From a virus, in the IMG/VR virus record IMGVR_UViG_3300030339_000198, positions 1 through 27,631 of that record: a stretch of DNA of 27,631 bases; one strand, given 5' to 3'. The stretch's first letter is position 1; every line of letters begins with the position of its first letter. The notes below the pieces were generated by a model. The model was not told the origin of the DNA, did not search any database, and saw only the letters and a list, made by a program, of their open reading frames with translations. Of the stretch, positions 1-11,876 are shown piece by piece. Position numbers and translations under genes: made by a program.

Positions 1-146
1 AGGAGGGATTATATCATTATTACTGAAAACCTCCACCTCAATAACTTAGGCTCTACTCTACTTGCTTCGTGTATATACTATTAATACATACCTTATTTTC
101 AACTAAGAATATTGTCTTAGTATATAGCTTTCGATAGTCGTTGAAG

Positions 147-180
147 AATAATTAAAAATTATAATCTTTAGAAATGTGTG
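147..180 (-). repeat. 3' arm of intron P6a stem (inverted repeat)
   Basis: Together with 971-1001 this forms a long inverted repeat bracketing the HNH ORF: a perfect 14-bp outer match (TTTAGAAATGTGTG against CACACATTTCTAAA) plus a further 11-bp match (AATAATTAAAA), separated by a small internal loop. It lies exactly between the Q and R core elements, where P6a is expected. Confidence 0.8.
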
Positions 181-937
181 TGTATCTATCTTTACTTCTT
201 ATTCTATTTAAAGTTCTATATAAACTTCCCTTCTTATTTTTATCTTGATTGTTTATATCAAATCCCATGTTTTTTAATATTTCCTTATTATTCATATTAG
301 TTTCCATATACTTGCATATAGTATGTGCTTCATTATCAGAGAATAGTTGATCATTTCTACTGGATTCTGGAATATTATATAGACATGATATAGATTTCCA
401 TATTTTCTTATTTTTAATTGAAGATATAATATCTTTCATCTTTTCATCATAACCTATTCCAGCAAAATTACATACATCTTTATAGTTCATTCTCTCTTGT
501 AAAGCTTGACATATTTTATGTACTGTATTGTTATCCAATTTAGCCCAATCATGTTCTTCTCCTTGTTTTCTTAACCCCATTCTATATGAATGTAAACCAT
601 TCTCACTATTATTACACCATTCTAGAACACATGTTTCATTAATTGTTTTTATACCAAGCATATGATTTACTTGATATGATTCAGGGTTTTCTATTGGATT
701 GAAACACATCATTACTAATCTATGAATAAGAAAATCTTGGAATCCGTTTATACATGCTAATTTTATTTTTTCATATCCTCTACCCACATTAGTCAAATTC
801 ATATTACACATACTAAATTCACTATAAACCTTCCCGTAATTACTCACTAAATAATATGGTTTTACATAAGGAATATAATCTGATACTCTTCTCCATTCTT
901 CTATTAATGGTGGTACTCTATACATAAATTGATTCAA
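152..937 (-). CDS. Intron-encoded NUMOD4/HNH homing endonuclease
   Basis: 261 aa. The N-terminus has a NUMOD4-type pattern (W15, then YYLVSNYGKVYS at about 28-39). An HNH_3-type nuclease core follows, with H72, the N91-H92 pair, LEW at 105-107, N113 and H116. The C-terminal 140 residues contain two similar helix-turn-helix-like stretches (about 130-160 and 200-230), probably for DNA recognition. The family makes a specific break in intronless alleles so the intron can spread. The start is a TTG at 935-937 with GAGGTG 7-8 nt upstream; an ATG four codons in is the alternative, but the paralogue at 4991-5782 has the same N-terminal length. The last codons (167-180) also form one arm of the intron's P6a stem, and the stop codon lies only 7 nt before the R element, so coding and ribozyme functions overlap. 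Confidence 0.93.
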   Translation of the reverse strand: MNQFMYRVPPLIEEWRRVSDYIPYVKPYYLVSNYGKVYSEFSMCNMNLTNVGRGYEKIKLACINGFQDFLIHRLVMMCFNPIENPESYQVNHMLGIKTINETCVLEWCNNSENGLHSYRMGLRKQGEEHDWAKLDNNTVHKICQALQERMNYKDVCNFAGIGYDEKMKDIISSIKNKKIWKSISCLYNIPESSRNDQLFSDNEAHTICKYMETNMNNKEILKNMGFDINNQDKNKKGSLYRTLNRIRSKDRYTHISKDYNF

Positions 938-970
938 ATTTTATCACCTCTTTTAGTTATTATTTTATTA

Positions 971-1001
971 CACACATTTCTAAATTAATATTTTAATTAT
1001 T
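971..1001 (-). repeat. 5' arm of intron P6a stem (inverted repeat)
   Basis: This is the partner of 147-180. It lies immediately downstream (in transcription) of the Q element and upstream of the HNH ribosome binding site, so the ORF sits in the loop closed by this stem. Confidence 0.8.
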
Positions 1002-1203
1002 CCTGCTGATTATTCCTTGTTAATATTCCTTAGCACTTTAGATTCCCTAAAGCTTTTATTTCAGCTTAGAACAGGTCTATATATTGTTTCTACTTTCGTA
1101 ACCATTTCTCTATTAGATTATGGTTTATAGACTTTTGTGAACTTCCCAGCAATTAAGAGAGTTATTCGACACTATATTACTATAGTGAAGTCCCAACACA
1201 TTT

Positions 1204-2370
1204 AGGATTCCTGTTTAGCAAAACTTTCGTTCCATTATCGACTCTAATAATATCTCTAATGATTTTTACTAGTCTTTGATCCACAACCATTTGTCCATGC
1301 ATCCAAATACTATAAGCATCTGAATATGAAATGCTATACATCTTTTGTAATATGTTTACAATACGTTGTTGTAACAATTCAACCATTGCTTGGTATGGTA
1401 GTATACATTCATCTACTCTAAGTCTCCAGTTACTAATAATTACATCTCTATTAGAAAAAGAAGATCTACCACCAAAGCATTGTCTTAGTTGTCCTTTCTT
1501 AGAAGATAATATGTTTTCAATCTCTCCATATAATTCTTGATATTTTAAACACAAATCATATAGTAATTGATTTTTTGTTTTCTTACCGTAAGAACTCCTT
1601 ATGTACTTGTCGTTTAATAAAGTAACTAATTTAGTCATCATATGATACTGAGCATTAGAACTTTCGAATATAAATTTGTCAGACGTCGTTTCGGTAGGTC
1701 TGAGGAGACTAGAGAACACGGCAATAGATTGTGTAAATACTTTATCTCTATTCTTCATGATGTGGTCATATTTTTCTTTCTTCTTAGGAGTATAATAGAA
1801 CTGCATGATCTCGTCAAATTTCTCTTTAAAATCTATTAACCCTAAACCAAAATATCTTTCTTCTTTCTTTTCCTTATCTGGTTGATATTCTACAATTATT
1901 TTATGCCCATTTTGATCTTTCTTCTCTTCATATCCTATAATCTTTTCAAATTTCTTAGGAGAAATATATGATGCTATTGCTTTAAATAGATTAGGATGTA
2001 TAATCCAATAATTTTGAACAGTCATCCAACCAAATATATTTAAATTATCATCTACATATTTTACTTTAGTCCCACAATCTGGACATATAGCTCCGTTATG
2101 AATTCTTTGATTAACATTACCACATGTACATTTGTATCTATTATCAAACGCATTTATATCTCCTAGACCTTGTCCAAATTTAGTAGAGAAAATACCTGAT
2201 GGATTCTTCAGATCTTTCTTGAATGAACTTTGAATTCCACTAAGAACAAAACCATCCTCATATAATATATTATATTTCTTGTCCTCATCCATATTAATAA
2301 CTTCTAGTGTGGGTTCATATGTAAAATTCGGATTATTAGGATACGAGCATTTTACCTCAAAATTTCCCAT
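1204..2370 (-). CDS. RNA polymerase beta-prime N-terminal part, exon 1 (interrupted by group I intron)
   Basis: 389 codons of exon (the unspliced frame reads on 7 more residues to a stop at 1180). It is the N-terminal portion of a phage multisubunit RNAP beta-prime. The zinc-binding domain is C81, C83, C96, C99 (pattern CxCG-x12-CxxCG). The switch/lid region matches GRSSFSNRDVII at 301-312, the counterpart of bacterial GRRVDYSGRSVIV. The exon ends at VLLNRNP (383-389), the counterpart of VLLNRAP just before the metal-binding NADFDGD loop. That catalytic loop is therefore not in this window and must lie in exon 2. An ATG start is preceded by GGAGGGAG. A class 1 promoter at 2448-2464 and a terminator for the upstream gene separate it from 2558-3160. 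Cellular beta-prime is a single chain; splitting into N and C genes is typical of phiKZ/AR9-like phages. Confidence 0.92.
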
Positions 2371-2447
2371 TTATATTTTTCTCCCTCCAGTATAAAGTAT
2401 ATTTTATTTAATAAAACTATCACAATACAATCATCCCCTCTCAATAT

Positions 2448-2464
2448 TATAATATATAATTATA
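2448..2464 (-). promoter_or_regulatory. Class 1 (early-type) promoter element
   Basis: Minus-strand TATAATTATATATTATA. One of eight near-identical copies in the window. It lies between the terminator of the upstream unit and the RNAP beta-prime exon, 78 nt before its ATG, the longest spacing of the set. Confidence 0.65.
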
Positions 2465-2470
2465 ACGGAT

Positions 2471-2502
2471 ATTAAAAAATAAAGAGGTTTTTACACCTCT
2501 TT
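2471..2502 (-). terminator. Rho-independent terminator after 2558-3160
   Basis: Minus strand AAAGAGGTGTAAAAACCTCTTT (written in two parts: AAAGAGGTG and CCTCTTT arms) followed by ATTTTTTAAT. The stem is 7 bp. Confidence 0.85.
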
Positions 2503-2557
2503 ATAAATAATAAATTATATATAGAAAACCTCTCAACATTATATAGTTTGTGTATAT

Positions 2558-3160
2558 TTATTTTTCTATAAATTCTACTAATAAATGAGGTTCATCATAT
2601 ATTGATTCATTACCTGAATCTTTATATGATACTATGATTTTATAACCTTCTTTAATATCATCAAATTCAAAACTTGTACCAGTACAATCTATATCTGTAG
2701 AAATTCCTATTTTATTAATTGAGTGTAAATAATAAATTTCGCTATCTGTGAATACACATTTAGTTATTCCAAAATCAACAATTATATTATTAGTACAAAT
2801 ATTACCCATATTGATTTCTTCTGATAATGTTATAAGTTCTTTTAATCTTTCTATTTCATTTATTTTTTCTTTTATACCAGATATTATTTCTTCTTTATTT
2901 ATCTCTTGCAAATTACCTAATTTATGATGTTTCATTACAATAGATTCATTGTCACCAAAACAATGTTGATCTAAAATATAAGGTCCTTCTATTTTACATT
3001 CATTCACTTCTCTTATTAATTTTTGACCATTATCAAAATCTAATTCAAATTTAATTATATCAGATATTGTCACGGGTTTAATTATATAAACCATAAACTC
3101 AAATAATCTACAATATTTTCCCTCTTCATTTATATACCAAATATGTCCTTTTTTATCCAT
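2558..3160 (-). CDS. Hypothetical protein (200 aa), third gene of MBL operon
   Basis: I do not recognise the family. It is a soluble, acidic protein with a mid-protein helical stretch (about 100-120, EEIISGIKEKINEIERLKEL) that could be a short coiled coil between two beta-rich halves. There is no signal peptide or membrane segment. The ATG has AGGAGG about 8 nt upstream. It is the last gene of a three-gene unit (4889, 3488, 3160) driven by a class 1 promoter and closed by a terminator at 2471-2502. An early, co-expressed takeover or counter-defence role is possible from context only. Confidence 0.75.
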   Translation of the reverse strand: MDKKGHIWYINEEGKYCRLFEFMVYIIKPVTISDIIKFELDFDNGQKLIREVNECKIEGPYILDQHCFGDNESIVMKHHKLGNLQEINKEEIISGIKEKINEIERLKELITLSEEINMGNICTNNIIVDFGITKCVFTDSEIYYLHSINKIGISTDIDCTGTSFEFDDIKEGYKIIVSYKDSGNESIYDEPHLLVEFIEK

Positions 3161-3185
3161 TTATAATTCCTCCTAATTTATTGAT

Positions 3186-3488
3186 TCATACCAAGGGGTC
3201 AGCCTTAGTATTATCAGAATTTGGTATATACATACCAGTGCAACAAAAAGAAATACGGCAAGATTTATTATTTTTATTAAGAGTATGATATCCTTCTAAA
3301 CCTCCATCTCTGTCACATATTCCCGTTATTTTAGTTTCAATAAATACATCACAATTTGAAATGAATTTTAATATTTCTTCTTCACTATCATGATTAATTA
3401 ACTTTTTAACTACTTTAATAGAATTTTTAAATCCAAGAACTACTCTTAAGGATCTGGCTGCTCTAGGGATAGCTTTTTTATTAGTCAC
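3186..3488 (-). CDS. Hypothetical small protein (100 aa), second gene of MBL operon
   Basis: Not recognised. It has a basic N-terminus (KKAIPRAARSLR), a helical middle, and a C-terminal half with five cysteines (C46, C58, C77, C82, C83), too irregular to call a zinc site. It starts with GTG at 3486-3488, supported by TAAGGAGG 8 nt upstream. It sits 12 nt after the MBL gene and 25 nt before the 200-aa gene, so all three are probably cotranscribed and may act together. Confidence 0.7.
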   Translation of the reverse strand: MTNKKAIPRAARSLRVVLGFKNSIKVVKKLINHDSEEEILKFISNCDVFIETKITGICDRDGGLEGYHTLNKNNKSCRISFCCTGMYIPNSDNTKADPLV

Positions 3489-3500
3489 ATTATTTCCTCC

Positions 3501-4889
3501 TTATTTTTTATAGAATAAATTTATATCACCAAATCCACTTTCTTTAGCAATCTTATCTAACTCTTCTTTATTATCTAAATGTACAAAGAAAACTCTATCT
3601 TTATTTTTGGTTATAACACTTTTAATTTTATTAAAATTGGTATGTGGACATCCCGCAAAATCTTCAAAATAAACATCATGAAATAAATATACATTTTCAC
3701 TTCCTAATCTATTACATTCAGATCTAAAGATACTATGTATTTCTGGATGTACATCACAAGTATCCCATACAAATATAAAAGTTTTATCAGAACGATTTAT
3801 TATATATCCATACGAATACCAATCATTATATATATTATGTACTAATTTTATAGTATTTATTTTGAATTTAACAGCACTATTAGTAGACGTTACACAATAT
3901 CCTTTTTCACCTCTTATTGGTGAAGAATGAAAATCCGTACTATATAATTCTTCTCCAATTAAATGATCATTTAGCATATCTCTCATTTTTGATTGTTCAG
4001 GATATATTATTTCAGGTATTATCTTTTTAGTATGATAACAATATTCTATTAGGGTAGGTAATGAACCTGTATGATCTGAATGCATGTGTGTTATTAATAT
4101 ATTAACGTGTTTTATATAATCATATTTATTCAATATTTTCTTTACTTTAGGAAATACATCACTACCACAATCAATTAATATTAATGTATCTAGCTCTATA
4201 AAATAACAAGAAGTATTACCTAAGTCTGTATTAAATGCCGAACCTATCCCTAAGAATTCTGGGACTTTCATTGTTATAAAAGAACTTTCTTCTTTTTCTT
4301 CAGAAATGTCAGATTCATTCTTAGTTTGAATAAATCCCCTAGCTTTAATATCGTCTTTTAAATTCATTTTGTTACATTCTTGATCTATATCGAGTTCTTT
4401 CATTTGTTTATAATTTTGATCAGAATCCAGATATGCATTTCCCCATACTTCAGGAAACATAAGAGGAGTCATAGATTTCATCTCTTCTAATCCTATATCA
4501 ATAGTTTCTGTAAACATATAAACCGTAATATGACGATTTAATGATATATAGTTTTGATATTCAGCACCTTTACTTAAATCAGTAAAAACTCGTACTAAAG
4601 GTTTTCCATCCAATGAAAATAATACTACATGTAATTGGTTTTCTTCAGTAGGTTCTGGATGTGAATCTTTCCATACTTTTATAAAATTATTATCGGTGTA
4701 TTTTATTTCGTTCGATCCTCTATCAAGAGTTTCTGTAAACATACCTTTTGTGAATATATTAGTCTTTAATGATATAAATTTAACATAATCAGAACATTTG
4801 TCTAGGTCTGTAAAAACTCTTACCGTAGGTAATCCATTCTGATCAAATACTACAATATGTACTTGGTTTTCTTTGATTTTCTCTTCCAT
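3501..4889 (-). CDS. MBL-fold metallohydrolase with duplicated N-terminal domain
   Basis: 462 aa. The C-terminal 250 residues are a metallo-beta-lactamase fold: LGIGSAF (213-219), the dinuclear zinc motif H268-x-H270-x-D272-H273 (THMHSDH), then H351, D376 (FVWDT) and H437 (FFVHLD). The full set of RNase Z/phosphodiesterase-type metal ligands is present, so it is probably active. The N-terminus has two copies of a ~70-residue module (7-75 and 83-150), each starting ENQ(V/L)H(I/V)V and carrying VRVFTDL and MFTET; I do not recognise this module. An acidic linker (about 150-205) follows. MBL phosphodiesterases are known as phage anti-Pycsar proteins (Apyc1), and tRNase Z is another relative; the substrate here is unknown. 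It is the first gene after a class 1 promoter, with an AAGGAG site before the ATG. Confidence 0.85.
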   Translation of the reverse strand: MEEKIKENQVHIVVFDQNGLPTVRVFTDLDKCSDYVKFISLKTNIFTKGMFTETLDRGSNEIKYTDNNFIKVWKDSHPEPTEENQLHVVLFSLDGKPLVRVFTDLSKGAEYQNYISLNRHITVYMFTETIDIGLEEMKSMTPLMFPEVWGNAYLDSDQNYKQMKELDIDQECNKMNLKDDIKARGFIQTKNESDISEEKEESSFITMKVPEFLGIGSAFNTDLGNTSCYFIELDTLILIDCGSDVFPKVKKILNKYDYIKHVNILITHMHSDHTGSLPTLIEYCYHTKKIIPEIIYPEQSKMRDMLNDHLIGEELYSTDFHSSPIRGEKGYCVTSTNSAVKFKINTIKLVHNIYNDWYSYGYIINRSDKTFIFVWDTCDVHPEIHSIFRSECNRLGSENVYLFHDVYFEDFAGCPHTNFNKIKSVITKNKDRVFFVHLDNKEELDKIAKESGFGDINLFYKK

Positions 4890-4928
4890 TTATAAACATC
4901 TCCTTAAAATTTGATTTATATACACTTA

Positions 4929-4945
4929 TATAATATATAGTTGTA
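4929..4945 (-). promoter_or_regulatory. Class 1 (early-type) promoter element
   Basis: Minus-strand TACAACTATATATTATA, 40 nt before the ATG of the MBL gene and just after the terminator of the HNH gene. Confidence 0.65.
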
Positions 4946-4958
4946 GGAGATGTTATTC

Positions 4959-4990
4959 GTTAAAATATAGAGAGGGATAATCCCTCTCTA
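4959..4990 (-). terminator. Terminator after free-standing HNH gene
   Basis: Stem arms TAGAGAGGG and CCCTCTCTA at 4968-4990, starting right at the HNH stop codon, then a T-rich tail (TATTTTAA). Confidence 0.85.
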
Positions 4991-5782
4991 TCATCCTCTT
5001 GAAGATTTAGCACCATTTCTAATAGCATTCATATCATTATTTAATTTATTTATAACTTCTGATGGTATGTTTTCTAAATCATAATTCATAGATTTTAAAA
5101 TGTTATTATTATCCAATCCGTCAGAGATATGATTTAATATAATTTCTATTTGATTATCATTAAAAATTTGATAATGAGGTTTACTGATATCAAAATTATA
5201 TTGTAAGGATATATCAGACCAACTACGATTATGTTTAATTGAACTAAGAATATCGCTTATACTTTTATCTACATCTCTATTCAACATAATTCTAGATATA
5301 TCTTTATACGGCATCCCTATTTGTAAGTATTTGCATATTTGATGGACTTGTTCATTTGTCAGAGTAGCATTATATTTAGTTTCACATTTAGAGACCAAAT
5401 TCATTCTCATTGCGTGATCCATATTTTCTCTATTAGTACAATATTCTAATACTTCTATTTCATTTATTGTTTTAATACCCAATACATGATTTACTTGATA
5501 TTTTTCTGGGTTTGGTATTGGGTCAAAACATAACTTTACTCCCCTATGAACAGAGAAATGTTTTTCTTCTCTATTACCAACATGAAATTCTGGTTTTAAT
5601 CTTAATTTTAACTCTTCATAACCTTTCTTACTTATTTTTGGTTTTAGATTTCTATTTGCAACTTCACTATATATTTTCCCTTTATTAGTTATTGTGTATA
5701 TATCTTGAATTTCTGGAAAATAATCAGCTATTCTTTCCGTTGATTCGGGTATTATTGGTATTCTAGTCATAAACGTTTTCAT
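4991..5782 (-). CDS. Free-standing NUMOD4/HNH homing endonuclease, paralogue of the intron-encoded one
   Basis: 263 aa, alignable along its whole length with the intron ORF at 152-937: the same MxxFMxR-P start, NUMOD4-like IYTITNKGKIYSE (28-40), HNH residues H79, N98-H99, N120 and H123, and the shared NPEKYQVNH-x-LGIKTINE block. The C-terminal half again contains helix-turn-helix-like repeats. It has its own terminator (4959-4990) and AGAGGTGATG before the ATG. It follows the beta-prime C-terminal gene after a terminator, and no group I core elements are visible around it, so I regard it as a free-standing homing endonuclease gene. It may target a nearby gene in related phages that lack it. 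Confidence 0.9.
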   Translation of the reverse strand: MKTFMTRIPIIPESTERIADYFPEIQDIYTITNKGKIYSEVANRNLKPKISKKGYEELKLRLKPEFHVGNREEKHFSVHRGVKLCFDPIPNPEKYQVNHVLGIKTINEIEVLEYCTNRENMDHAMRMNLVSKCETKYNATLTNEQVHQICKYLQIGMPYKDISRIMLNRDVDKSISDILSSIKHNRSWSDISLQYNFDISKPHYQIFNDNQIEIILNHISDGLDNNNILKSMNYDLENIPSEVINKLNNDMNAIRNGAKSSRG

Positions 5783-5797
5783 TTAAATCATCACCTC

Positions 5798-5809
5798 TAA
5801 CAGTATGTA
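5798..5809 (-). promoter_or_regulatory. Possible weak class 2 (late-type) promoter
   Basis: TACA-TACTGT-TA on the minus strand, 16 nt before the HNH start. It matches the AAC(A/T)-N6-TA pattern except at the first base; low confidence. Confidence 0.25.
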
Positions 5810-5820
5810 CGACCTATAGT

Positions 5821-5858
5821 AAAAAAATAAAATATAGAGAGGAATTATCCTCTCTATA
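5821..5858 (-). terminator. Terminator after RNAP beta-prime C-terminal gene
   Basis: Stem arms TATAGAGAGG and CCTCTCTATA at 5833-5858, followed on the minus strand by a T-tract (TTTATTTTTTT). Confidence 0.88.
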
Positions 5859-5866
5859 ATGAATAA

Positions 5867-7090
5867 TTAAAAATGTCCTGTAAAAGCTTTAAGTGGATTC
5901 ATCTCAGTAAATTTAATTGTAGAATCGTGGAAACCCTTCATCGTTTTTTGTTTTTGAGTTGCTGCTATAATAGATAAGGCTAGACCTATATTCTTAAATC
6001 CTAATCTAAAGAACATGTTTCCAGCACATTTATTACAATATCCATTTTTCGATTCACACATATTAGAGAATCTCATTTTAACAACTTTATTTATATATTT
6101 TTTCATATTTTTACTTGTCATTTCAATTAAATCTGGACCATCAATTATATAATTATACATATATTCTTCTACATTTTTATCCGTTAAGAAAACCTCAATA
6201 TATCTTTTAGTTAAACAATCAGATCCTCCGTCCATGAGTACGACATGTTGATACGCGGACGATATTTGCTTCTCTTTGTAACCTCCAAGTGCCGTTAAAC
6301 GGCTTCTACCATAAGGTCCACTAGCCAATGAATTAGACATAGGAGCATAGTCTTTTTTAGATATACCATTCATATAATTACTCATAATTATATTATATTC
6401 ACCAGTGTCTGGGTCTCTTGTAGCACCTTTACTAACAAACATGTTTTTAAAGTTATTACCAAAGCTTCCTCTTGCACCAGAATCAAATAAATCCATAGAC
6501 TCATCACCATCTAAATACACTCTCATGTAATCTAATACTTCTTGTTCCATTTGATCAGCAGCAAAAGGATCTTTAGCATCTATTCTCTCTTTATATTTCT
6601 TCTTATATAATTCATTTAATTTCTTAGCTGCTACTGTACCACAGGTTAACATTTTTTCACTCATGGTTGGAGAAATTATAGAAACAAATGGCATGAACTT
6701 TTCACATCTCATAAAAAAATAATCCATGTCATCTGTAGTAATATCATCTTCCATTAAAGCATAAGATAATCTGGAATTCATTTTACCAAACTCTTTACCA
6801 TTTATAGTTTTATTTATATAACCATCGAATACATGTGTAAATTTCTCTGATATAAAATGGATATTAAACATCCATAATCCAACAGTTGTTAAGAAAGGTT
6901 TTTTATTCTTCCAAGGAGATTCACCATAAGCATCCTTAGGAATCATTATTTCATCATAAGGATTAAATCTTGCTTTACCATTAAACTCTCCAAACATTTT
7001 TATTACTGTTGATTTAGTAACATCAGAAGGTTTAAGATTTAATATATATTTTACATCTTCTTCTTTATCAATCATTTTAGGATATCTCAA
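5867..7090 (-). CDS. RNA polymerase beta-prime C-terminal part
   Basis: 407 aa, the C-terminal half of a split phage RNAP beta-prime. Visible landmarks in order: PFLTTVGLWMFN (65-76, like TTVGR-xxFN), DSGARGSFGNNFKNMF (203-218, like DSGARGS in bacterial beta-prime), a trigger-loop region with NGISKKDYAPMSN (241-253), the second zinc site C292, C345, C352, C355, and SIIAATQKQKTMKGFH (373-388), the counterpart of [21 protein letters not shown]. The protein ends soon after that, as expected for phiKZ-like enzymes. The start is TTG at 7088-7090, with AAGGAGG 8 nt upstream. It is transcribed before the N-terminal gene and separated from it by the HNH and MBL units. No class 1 or 2 promoter is obvious in the 27 nt after the previous terminator, so readthrough is possible. 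Confidence 0.93.
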   Translation of the reverse strand: MRYPKMIDKEEDVKYILNLKPSDVTKSTVIKMFGEFNGKARFNPYDEIMIPKDAYGESPWKNKKPFLTTVGLWMFNIHFISEKFTHVFDGYINKTINGKEFGKMNSRLSYALMEDDITTDDMDYFFMRCEKFMPFVSIISPTMSEKMLTCGTVAAKKLNELYKKKYKERIDAKDPFAADQMEQEVLDYMRVYLDGDESMDLFDSGARGSFGNNFKNMFVSKGATRDPDTGEYNIIMSNYMNGISKKDYAPMSNSLASGPYGRSRLTALGGYKEKQISSAYQHVVLMDGGSDCLTKRYIEVFLTDKNVEEYMYNYIIDGPDLIEMTSKNMKKYINKVVKMRFSNMCESKNGYCNKCAGNMFFRLGFKNIGLALSIIAATQKQKTMKGFHDSTIKFTEMNPLKAFTGHF

Positions 7091-7110
7091 TTATAATACC
7101 TCCTTTCAGA

Positions 7111-7141
7111 AAAAAATAAAGAGCTACCTAAATAACTCTTT
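7111..7141 (-). terminator. Terminator after 7152-7535
   Basis: AAAGAG and CTCTTT arms (7118-7141) with a longer, imperfect loop, then ATTTTTTT. Weaker than the others. Confidence 0.65.
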
Positions 7142-7151
7142 ATGTTTAAAA

Positions 7152-7535
7152 TCACCTACATATTTCAGCATATTTCATTATATAATTAGAAACTAAACTA
7201 TATAATTCTTCATAACCATCTTCTTGTATATCAAGCATTTTTCCATATACATATGATTTGTCTTTTAAAGCTAAATTTACATTAATCTCTATCTCATATA
7301 ATATATATGCTTTATTATCTATAATCTGACATACTTTATGTAAATGTTTTTCATTCATTATATTTATATGATCAAATATAATACATATTCCATTTAAATT
7401 ATCTTTTTCTAAAGTCCATATAGGTTTTCTTAAAAAATTATTATTTAATTTTACTAATATATAAGGTATATCAACATTATTTATATTATTATATACTAAT
7501 ACTTTTAAATCACCTTCATATAATTTCTTTTCCAT
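7152..7535 (-). CDS. Hypothetical protein (127 aa)
   Basis: Not recognised. It is predicted to be a small soluble alternation of beta strands (KVLVYNNIN, PYILVKLNN, GICIIFDHI, YILYEIEIN) ending in a helix. The ATG follows AAAGAAGG. It has its own class 1 promoter 38 nt upstream, inside the short gap after the virion-protein genes, and a terminator before the RNAP beta-prime C-terminal gene. It may be expressed early and supply readthrough transcription into RNAP. Confidence 0.7.
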   Translation of the reverse strand: MEKKLYEGDLKVLVYNNINNVDIPYILVKLNNNFLRKPIWTLEKDNLNGICIIFDHINIMNEKHLHKVCQIIDNKAYILYEIEINVNLALKDKSYVYGKMLDIQEDGYEELYSLVSNYIMKYAEICR

Positions 7536-11019: not shown

Positions 11020-11841
11020 TTATATACCTAAAGCTATTAGTATACCATTTAATCTATGTAATGTAAGTCTTATGTAAAATTTTATCCTTGATTTTATAGG
11101 TTCATTCTTTAATACAACTTTTACTAAACTCTTATTTACTGCATGTAATAACCAAAAATTTACATCATAATTATCCATTATTTCTTTCACAGTAGTATTT
11201 CTTGTAAAATATCGGTACTCATAAATTCCATTGTCGAATATATAGCTTGAACAATCTACATCTACAATCTTAAGACATCCAGTACATAATGGAGTTTCAT
11301 TAATTTTAGTAGCATATTTATTAGTATAAAATTTAGTACCTCCACAATTAGGACAAGTTATATAACTTTTTTGCTTTTCTTCTTCATGTCTTTTTTCCTT
11401 TTGCTTTTCTTCTTCATGTCTTTTTTCCTTTTGCTTTTCTTCTTCATGTCTTTTTTCCTTTTGCTTTTCTTCTTCATGTCTTTTTTCATTTCTTTTAATA
11501 TTCATAAAGATATCAAAAGAAGCATTAGTTTCTCTATATTTTATAAATTCATCAACAATATCACTATTTGCTGAATTAAAAGGTGGAGTTTGTGGTGGTC
11601 GTTGTGGTTGTACTGGTGGAGGTGAAGTTTGTTGTGTATATGGATTGTAATTTGTATAAGGATTATTTTTTACTGGATTAGAGTATTGTGAAGATTGATT
11701 TGGTGGTTCTTCATATTTAAACATAATCTTTTTAATTTTAAATTGAGCTTCTTTTACTTCTTCCAAAGTATTTCCATTAGATATAGTTCTATTTTTTAAT
11801 GCTTGTATTTTTCTTTTATCACTTTCTGATATTGGTAACAT
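11020..11841 (-). CDS. Zinc-ribbon protein with proline-rich linker and 10-aa tandem repeat
   Basis: 273 aa. Parts in order: a short helical N-terminus, a Pro/Gln/Asn-rich disordered segment (roughly 45-95, NPYTNYNPYTQQTSPPP and onward), a highly charged run of four KRHEEEKQKE units encoded by a 30-bp direct repeat (11371-11490), a zinc ribbon CPNCGG...CTGC, and a C-terminal helical domain of about 80 residues. The charged run should form a single helix acting as a spacer. The start chosen is the third in-frame ATG (11839-11841), because GGGGGGA lies 9 nt before it; earlier ATGs at 11850 and 11859 fall at or before that ribosome site. Class 1 promoter 36 nt upstream. Function unknown; DNA/RNA or protein binding by the ribbon is possible. 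Confidence 0.75.
   Translation of the reverse strand: MLPISESDKRKIQALKNRTISNGNTLEEVKEAQFKIKKIMFKYEEPPNQSSQYSNPVKNNPYTNYNPYTQQTSPPPVQPQRPPQTPPFNSANSDIVDEFIKYRETNASFDIFMNIKRNEKRHEEEKQKEKRHEEEKQKEKRHEEEKQKEKRHEEEKQKSYITCPNCGGTKFYTNKYATKINETPLCTGCLKIVDVDCSSYIFDNGIYEYRYFTRNTTVKEIMDNYDVNFWLLHAVNKSLVKVVLKNEPIKSRIKFYIRLTLHRLNGILIALGI
11371..11490 (-). repeat. Four tandem 30-bp direct repeats (coding)
   Basis: Four head-to-tail 30-bp units, the first three identical and the fourth with a single base change near its end. Period 30 keeps frame and encodes KRHEEEKQKE. The near-identity suggests recent expansion by slippage or unequal recombination. Confidence 0.95.
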
Positions 11842-11876
11842 TTTAAACATTCCCCCCATTTAAATTTATTCAATAA

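Follow-up and report, generated by a model that had tools for sequence, protein, structure and literature searches.

Mobile group I introns that encode HNH homing endonucleases are already known, and introns of this kind in phage RNA polymerase (RNAP) genes are known from AR9 and phiPA3. In the annotation of AR9, gene g270 appears in two pieces and g189 in six, and one study (PMC5312081) locates the early gene g190 in a g189 intron. In phiPA3 (PMC11620839), a putative group I intron that encodes an HNH enzyme (gp210) lies beside conserved RNAP aspartates in the beta-like gene of the virion RNAP (vRNAP; gp211/209), and the enzyme nicks the intron-free gene of phiKZ to the benefit of its own phage. 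RNA reads support splicing for 37 of the 76 group I introns predicted in gut huge phages (PMC12393476), and a review (PMC12908238) holds that introns thrive at conserved residues such as active sites, where imperfect deletion gives a non-functional protein.

Here we report an element which is very probably a mobile group I intron, itself probably of subgroup IA, in the gene for the N-terminal part of the non-virion RNAP (nvRNAP) beta-prime subunit of an uncultured jumbo phage; from its sequence we infer splicing, cleavage and homing. Its closest counterpart, AR9 g270/g271, has an insert in the same gene that shares the R and S words and includes an HNH ORF. In AR9, however, the insert is 897 nt long and lies in the metal loop (SGDYDG^DVLN, the caret marking the insertion point), whereas the NRNP^T site is empty. 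In the phiKZ-type Pseudomonas phages SL2, OMKO1, PaZh_1 and KEN49, gp55 homologues are interrupted in the same two motifs by inserts that contain R and S words, and the NRNP-motif insert contains an annotated HNH ORF in SL2 and an unnamed ORF in OMKO1; these phages differ in that the motif is split one codon earlier (HRN^PT) and in having extra inserts at APN^ADFDGD and/or DFDGD^Q. In Staphylococcus phage LY01 the same nvRNAP motif holds an insert that bears R and S words, but it is split two codons earlier (LNR^NP) and only 161 nt long, with no room for an HNH ORF. The phiPA3 case (PMC11620839) concerns another subunit of the other polymerase and an endonuclease that was assayed, whereas ours is read from sequence. 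A literature search with a scope outside the AR9 genome paper (Lavysh 2016) returned no account of introns at the NRNP motif of nvRNAP beta-prime genes, nor was the wider pattern of introns in nvRNAP catalytic motifs found described within that scope. What is new is the NRNP^T insertion point, which is empty in the other 19 loci that we inspected.

Results

The record and its longer counterparts

The window analysed, 27,631 bases long, comprises an entire viral record, the 5' end of which falls inside the group I intron. It is the reverse complement of positions 37,824-65,454 of a 263,571-base record (G001), with 99.993% identity. G001 is the source of contig L002, and L001 belongs to a third record; window positions 1-7370 are identical in L001 and L002, and the scan of P0001 matched these two only. 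The missing 3' part of the intron and the second exon are readable in both, beyond window position 1. Elsewhere in the window, an ORF at 11020-11859 (minus strand) encodes tandem copies of KRHEEEKQKE, with a zinc-ribbon-like CPNCGG motif after them.

The interrupted gene and its junction

Exon 1 (positions 1204-2370, minus strand) comprises 389 codons ending in TKVLLNRNP, and its product matches the RNA polymerase subunit family PHROG 2987 (E 5.7e-43). In the phage collection 91 records match this protein; identity is 29.0% over 95% with phiR1-37 g274 and 31.3% over 71% with AR9 g270. Since g270 is annotated as the N-terminus of the non-virion RNAP beta-prime subunit, the gene is assigned to the nvRNAP beta-prime N-terminal subunit, an assignment based on homology to g270 and PHROG 2987 together with the metal-binding DFDGD motif. 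Pfam RNAP models gave matches below the cut-off only, and the window record yielded no match to PF00623.

The 3' end of exon 1 reads AAC AGG AAT CCT (NRNP), and the first intron base is 1203. Outside the window, exon 2 (L002 7496-7834) continues in frame for 112 codons and contains AADFDGD. Joining L002 6167 to 7496 yields a predicted spliced protein of 501 aa that reads NRNPTIAYGSILYSKVIDISFDYSLQIPLGILGLLAADFDGDVLNV, with NRNP^TIAYGS followed by AADFDGD. The PHROG 2987 profile is continuous over the junction, exon 1 covering positions 47-381 and exon 2 positions 382-474; with the same profile searched in six frames, the match of exon 1 extended over 47-387, that is, six positions inside the intron. 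Exon 1 ends in U and the intron in G (L002 7495), the site being set by protein continuity. Relatives are uninterrupted at this point, with NRNP^TIS in BpSp and AR9, NRNP^SIN in phiR1-37 and NRNP^TIN in L031.

The arginine of NRxP and the three aspartates of the metal loop have a role in catalysis. As counted on the sequence, the junction is followed by 31 codons before the first residue of the loop and by 33 before its first aspartate. The original prediction had placed a group I intron directly behind the NRNP codons of a phage RNAP beta-prime gene and had expected the S element and a second exon outside the window. Both were found beyond position 1, the exon in frame; the loop, however, is AADFDGD and not NADFDGD, and the proposed position immediately before it has to be revised given the intervening codons. 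Left unspliced, the ORF at 2370-1180 encodes 396 residues ending in NRNPKCVGTSL at a stop codon, without the metal loop, which agrees, as far as sequence can tell, with the expectation that the unspliced mRNA would give a chain devoid of its catalytic centre.

Intron anatomy

The intron is 1,328 nt long; its first 1,203 nt occupy positions 1-1203 of the window (minus strand, as are all elements given here by window position), and the last 125 nt lie beyond the record, in L002 from 7371. All helices were placed by hand. P1 (1191-1207) pairs the exon sequence UCCU (1207-1204) with an internal guide GGGA (1194-1191), with a U.G pair at the splice site, and is lengthened by AA/UU, reproducing the UCCUAA/UUGGGA helix first proposed along with the P, Q and R elements. 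The P2 hairpin CACUAUA/UAUAGUG (1170-1187) has 7/7 pairs, one of them altered on both sides relative to the paralogues described below. The 5' strand of P3, AACUCUC (1157-1163), finds its partner GGGAGUU outside the window, at L002 7383-7389 (7/7 pairs), and P4 is formed with 6/6 pairs between the P element UUGCUG (1147-1152) and the Q element CAGCAG (1003-1008). The 5' strands of P6 (1002-995) and of the 15-bp P6a (984-970) together span 970-1002; the 3' strand of P6a (181-167; L002 7190-7204) is formed by codons near the end of the HNH ORF, and that of P6, AAUUAUUC, lies at 146-153 (8/8 pairs). The R element, which is the P7 5' strand GACUAU (134-139), pairs 6/6 with AUAGUC at L002 7419-7424, outside the window, and the S element and P8 (7/7 pairs) were found in L001/L002 beyond window position 1. 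Read by eye, P10 is weak, with about 2 bp. The window has a single copy of the R word TTCAACGACTATCGAAA, at 145-129, and 0/100 shuffles contained it with at most two mismatches.

Two paralogous introns of the same genome, in the topoisomerase and DNA polymerase genes, preserve P1, P2, P3 and P6 as paired helices despite letter changes. P3 has 7/7 pairs in each of the three copies (AACUCUC/GGGAGUU here, AACCUAU/AUAGGUU and AACCUUU/GAAGGUU in the paralogues), and P1 is GGAU/GUCC in both paralogues vs UCCU/GGGA here, guide and exon changing together. P4 includes one nonstandard pair in the topoisomerase copy and one in the polymerase copy (5/6 each). The blastn match between our intron and the topoisomerase copy (83% identity over 212 bases) begins at the first predicted intron base (L002 6168) and, on the topoisomerase side, at the second base of that intron. 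Together with the continuity of PHROG 2987 at 381/382, this match bears out the splice site predicted at 1204/1203.

The element thus combines a P1 with U.G and guide, a P/Q/R/S core with P3-P8 and P7, and a terminal G, the traits of group I introns. In subgroup IA, R is separated from the P3 3' strand by a P7.1/P7.2 insert. Here 145 nt, which may pair in this way, lie between the P7 5' strand and the P3 3' strand, and this long insert, together with an ORF in the P6 loop, makes IA the most likely subgroup. A hand reading of P3 and P4 in the AR9 intron was discarded (4/7 and 5/7 pairs), and AR9 was poorly aligned in the 5' half of a MAFFT alignment of the ORF-less introns.

The endonuclease ORF

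The P6 loop contains an ORF (152-937, minus strand; L002 6434-7219) of 786 bases and 261 aa with a TTG start. It matches the HNH families PHROG 59 (E 2.7e-22), PHROG 959 (E 1.7e-16) and also PHROG 1492, which, with its open frame, identifies it as a putative HNH homing endonuclease, an HNH ORF having been read from the letters in the original prediction; against Pfam, HNH and NUMOD4 matches were below the cut-off (NUMOD4 E 0.2). The protein shares 57/164 identical residues with the ORF of the topoisomerase intron and 101/256 with the product of a free-standing HNH gene at window 4991-5782 (minus strand). The latter is flanked by the vRNAP beta-prime C gene (5867-7090), which matches AR9 g264, and by a metallo-beta-lactamase-like ORF identified by eye. 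Because the 3' strand of P6a lies inside the ORF, translation to its end should open this helix, an effect that may carry functional weight. Downstream, at L002 7893-8721, a sequence with the MKQFMT start seen in HNH genes and an early stop has, by eye, the appearance of a decayed endonuclease gene.

Model searches

Rfam searches of the window and of L001/L002, the check originally suggested for the core, gave no match over the cut-off, RF00028 included. In a relaxed RF00028 search (E up to 10) of G001 and G002, three sister introns were listed and the nvRNAP copy was absent, and relaxed Rfam searches of window 1-7200 returned only chance-level snoRNA and sRNA matches. The likely cause is the 786-base ORF that separates the intron halves, and for this reason the Rfam miss is not counted as an exclusion. 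Taken alone, the 3' half of the intron (L002) scored 16.8 bits (E 0.044) against the group I model, in an alignment that was largely out of register except in the S region.

Two models were built from the introns themselves. The first (R1) used five intron 3' halves, four from this phage, the nvRNAP copy included, and that of AR9; it matches five of the six introns of the phage, the vRNAP intron being the exception, and its match to the nvRNAP copy proves nothing. The second (R2), made from five other introns with the nvRNAP copy left out, has no predicted base pair and scores sequence only; it finds window positions 145-33 at E 2.9e-18 and the full copy in L013 at 1.3e-24. Neither model lists the vRNAP intron at E up to 1. 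A weak R1 match (E 0.054) was observed in G001 at L017 2906-3024 (minus strand). A 33-base pattern scan matched the RNAP and topoisomerase copies only, in two records, and a word scan of G001, which gave many chance matches, was used only for re-inspecting known copies.

Other introns of the same phage

Our searches identified five further introns in G001, in or near conserved motifs, giving a total of six introns in five genes. The gene for the topoisomerase II large subunit is interrupted at SD^ADKDGDH (L015 2650-3802; 1,153 nt), with an ORF matching PHROG HNH families at 2e-29, and that for a DNA polymerase, of family B by its motifs, at ITD^TDS (L019 7402-6675, minus strand; 728 nt), with an ORF remnant containing a stop, seen by eye. 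The anaerobic ribonucleotide reductase NrdD carries two introns without an ORF of at least 60 aa, one at about L011 10010-10510, between QSV and QYGGVS (an approximate point), and one of 446 nt at TMG^CRTQ (L011 11019-11464). Finally, a second beta-prime N gene (G001 225096-222285, minus strand) has its metal loop split at VEGDY^DGDQLT by an intron of 1,231 nt with an HNH ORF (8.2e-29). This gene matches the 'viral RNA polymerase beta-prime subunit' of Madawaska, MarsHill, PB50 and Machias, in which the other beta-prime gene is annotated 'non-viral', and is therefore taken as that of the vRNAP. Further introns hidden by ORFs may exist in G001.

Insertion points among relatives

We inspected 20 nvRNAP beta-prime N loci (L002-L005, L024-L029, L031, L032 and L038-L045; L030, of the same length as AR9, was not counted), a small part of the matching records (282 with the Noxifer query alone). 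At least one insert was present in 13, namely in the gene studied here and in AR9, PB50, AH12, Machias, LY01, phiKZ, SL2, OMKO1, PaZh_1, KEN49, PS119XW and L032, while seven were insert-free (BpSp, Goe21, phiR1-37, Madawaska, LPJP1, Noxifer and L031); several loci were picked because the gene appeared in pieces, and this share is not a frequency. Nine distinct insertion points were found, eight of them within NRNPT or xADFDGDQ. IGG^R (L032) is the one outside them. In the first motif the points are LNR^NP (LY01), HRN^P (SL2, OMKO1, PaZh_1 and KEN49) and NRNP^T, occupied in the phage studied only (1/20 loci). In the second they are x^AD (phiKZ, SL2, PaZh_1, KEN49, AH12 and Machias), AD^YDGD (AH12 and Machias), DFD^GD (L032), DYDG^D (AR9 and PB50) and DFDGD^Q (KEN49, OMKO1 and PS119XW).

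Both the R and the S word lie within the insert in 16 of 18 junction rows. Insert b of L032 contains neither exact word, and for this reason enters the count of insertion points but not that of proven introns. The exon ends in U in 18/18 rows and the intron in G in 17/18 (PS119XW being the exception), the junctions having been placed with this rule in mind. The junction row of PS119XW has a wrong right end; this insert, as well as the junctions Machias b, KEN49 c and OMKO1 b, which were missed by the search words, were placed from tblastn and the sequence itself.

In KEN49, the gene of which has three inserts, ADFDGD forms an 18-nt exon between two of them (L043 5969-5986), and in AH12 (L024 3643-3648) and Machias (L039 2981-2986) a 6-nt micro-exon, GCCGAT, encodes Ala-Asp, including the first catalytic aspartate, between two introns in tandem, each about 180 nt long. 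The annotated beta-prime protein ends before or inside the metal loop in AH12, PB50, phiKZ, SL2, KEN49, OMKO1 and Machias; that of KEN49 ends at HRN, and those of AH12 and Machias before the loop. Close relatives may differ: AR9 has its intron at DYDG^D, and in Goe21, of the same genus, the gene matches in one piece; LY01 has an intron at LNR^NP, and Madawaska, about 98% identical over LY01 exon 1, has none. These comparisons support the view that the catalytic motifs of phage RNAP beta-prime genes are an unusually saturated intron target, with apparent micro-exons down to 6 and 18 nt. In the Staphylococcus phages Machias, AH12 and LY01 (H109-H111), the vRNAP beta-prime C gene also matches in two pieces, and an insert is likely there.

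Discussion

The anatomy of the intron, its boundaries, the empty sites and the paralogous copies are established at the level of sequence, and the following course of events would account for them. In the folded intron RNA, the internal guide would pair with the exon UCCU, and the intron would excise itself through two transesterifications started by guanosine, joining CCU to ACC and restoring NRNPTIAYGS...AADFDGD. The HNH protein would nick or cut the intron-free NRNP site of co-infecting relatives, after which the intron would be copied in or the rival damaged. A catalytic motif may have been chosen as a very constant target, at which sloppy intron loss would kill the enzyme.

Different scenarios might nevertheless explain an intron at such a position. 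A regulatory switch, in which splicing is withheld or allowed as infection proceeds and thereby times the active non-virion RNAP, was the functional reading of the original prediction. It would draw on the fact that the metal loop cannot be made from unspliced RNA, on the introns in or near conserved motifs of both RNAPs and three more enzymes, and on P6a, which shares sequence with the HNH ORF and would be disturbed by full translation. Loss of the catalytic centre, however, would follow from any intron placed ahead of an essential motif and is no sign of control. Furthermore, the inserts of several relatives are too short for an HNH ORF or absent. The presence and position of the intron differ among near relatives (AR9/Goe21; LY01/Madawaska), and a mobile element fits this variation better than a conserved control device. 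The switch is left without support, and we regard it as very unlikely. In a broader version, the six introns, which interrupt the genes of five enzymes (both RNAPs, topoisomerase II, DNA polymerase and the anaerobic ribonucleotide reductase), might act as a joint RNA gate on transcription and replication in this phage, given that all six would need guanosine and magnesium; this we consider improbable.

A gene split without splicing, in which exon 2 would be translated separately (TTG at L002 7388, 148 aa) and the two chains would assemble, is suggested by the location of exon 2 within an open ORF with a possible start and by the frequent splitting of phage RNAP subunits. Nonetheless, profile and residues are continuous at the predicted junction, the parts are separated by a ribozyme core whose internal guide matches, and the TTG start would add a 36-codon leader made of intron sequence, all of which makes this scenario extremely improbable. 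Just as implausible is a dead or decaying intron that has lost splicing, for, although in the polymerase-gene copy, as read by eye, the ORF is broken and the 3' end is short, in the nvRNAP copy the core pairs and the 261-codon HNH ORF are intact, and its two exons, both open, do not differ between L001 and L002.

As a probable mobile group I intron, the element adds one more insertion point to a picture in which group I introns have entered the two catalytic motifs of the jumbo phage nvRNAP at many points in different lineages, a pattern that merits a proper survey. It also carries a warning for annotation, as the beta-prime proteins of several relatives stop before or inside the metal loop. 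Our results highlight the nvRNAP genes as a test bed for understanding why mobile introns pick catalytic codons, how homing endonucleases serve as weapons between phages, and whether or not splicing limits phage gene expression.
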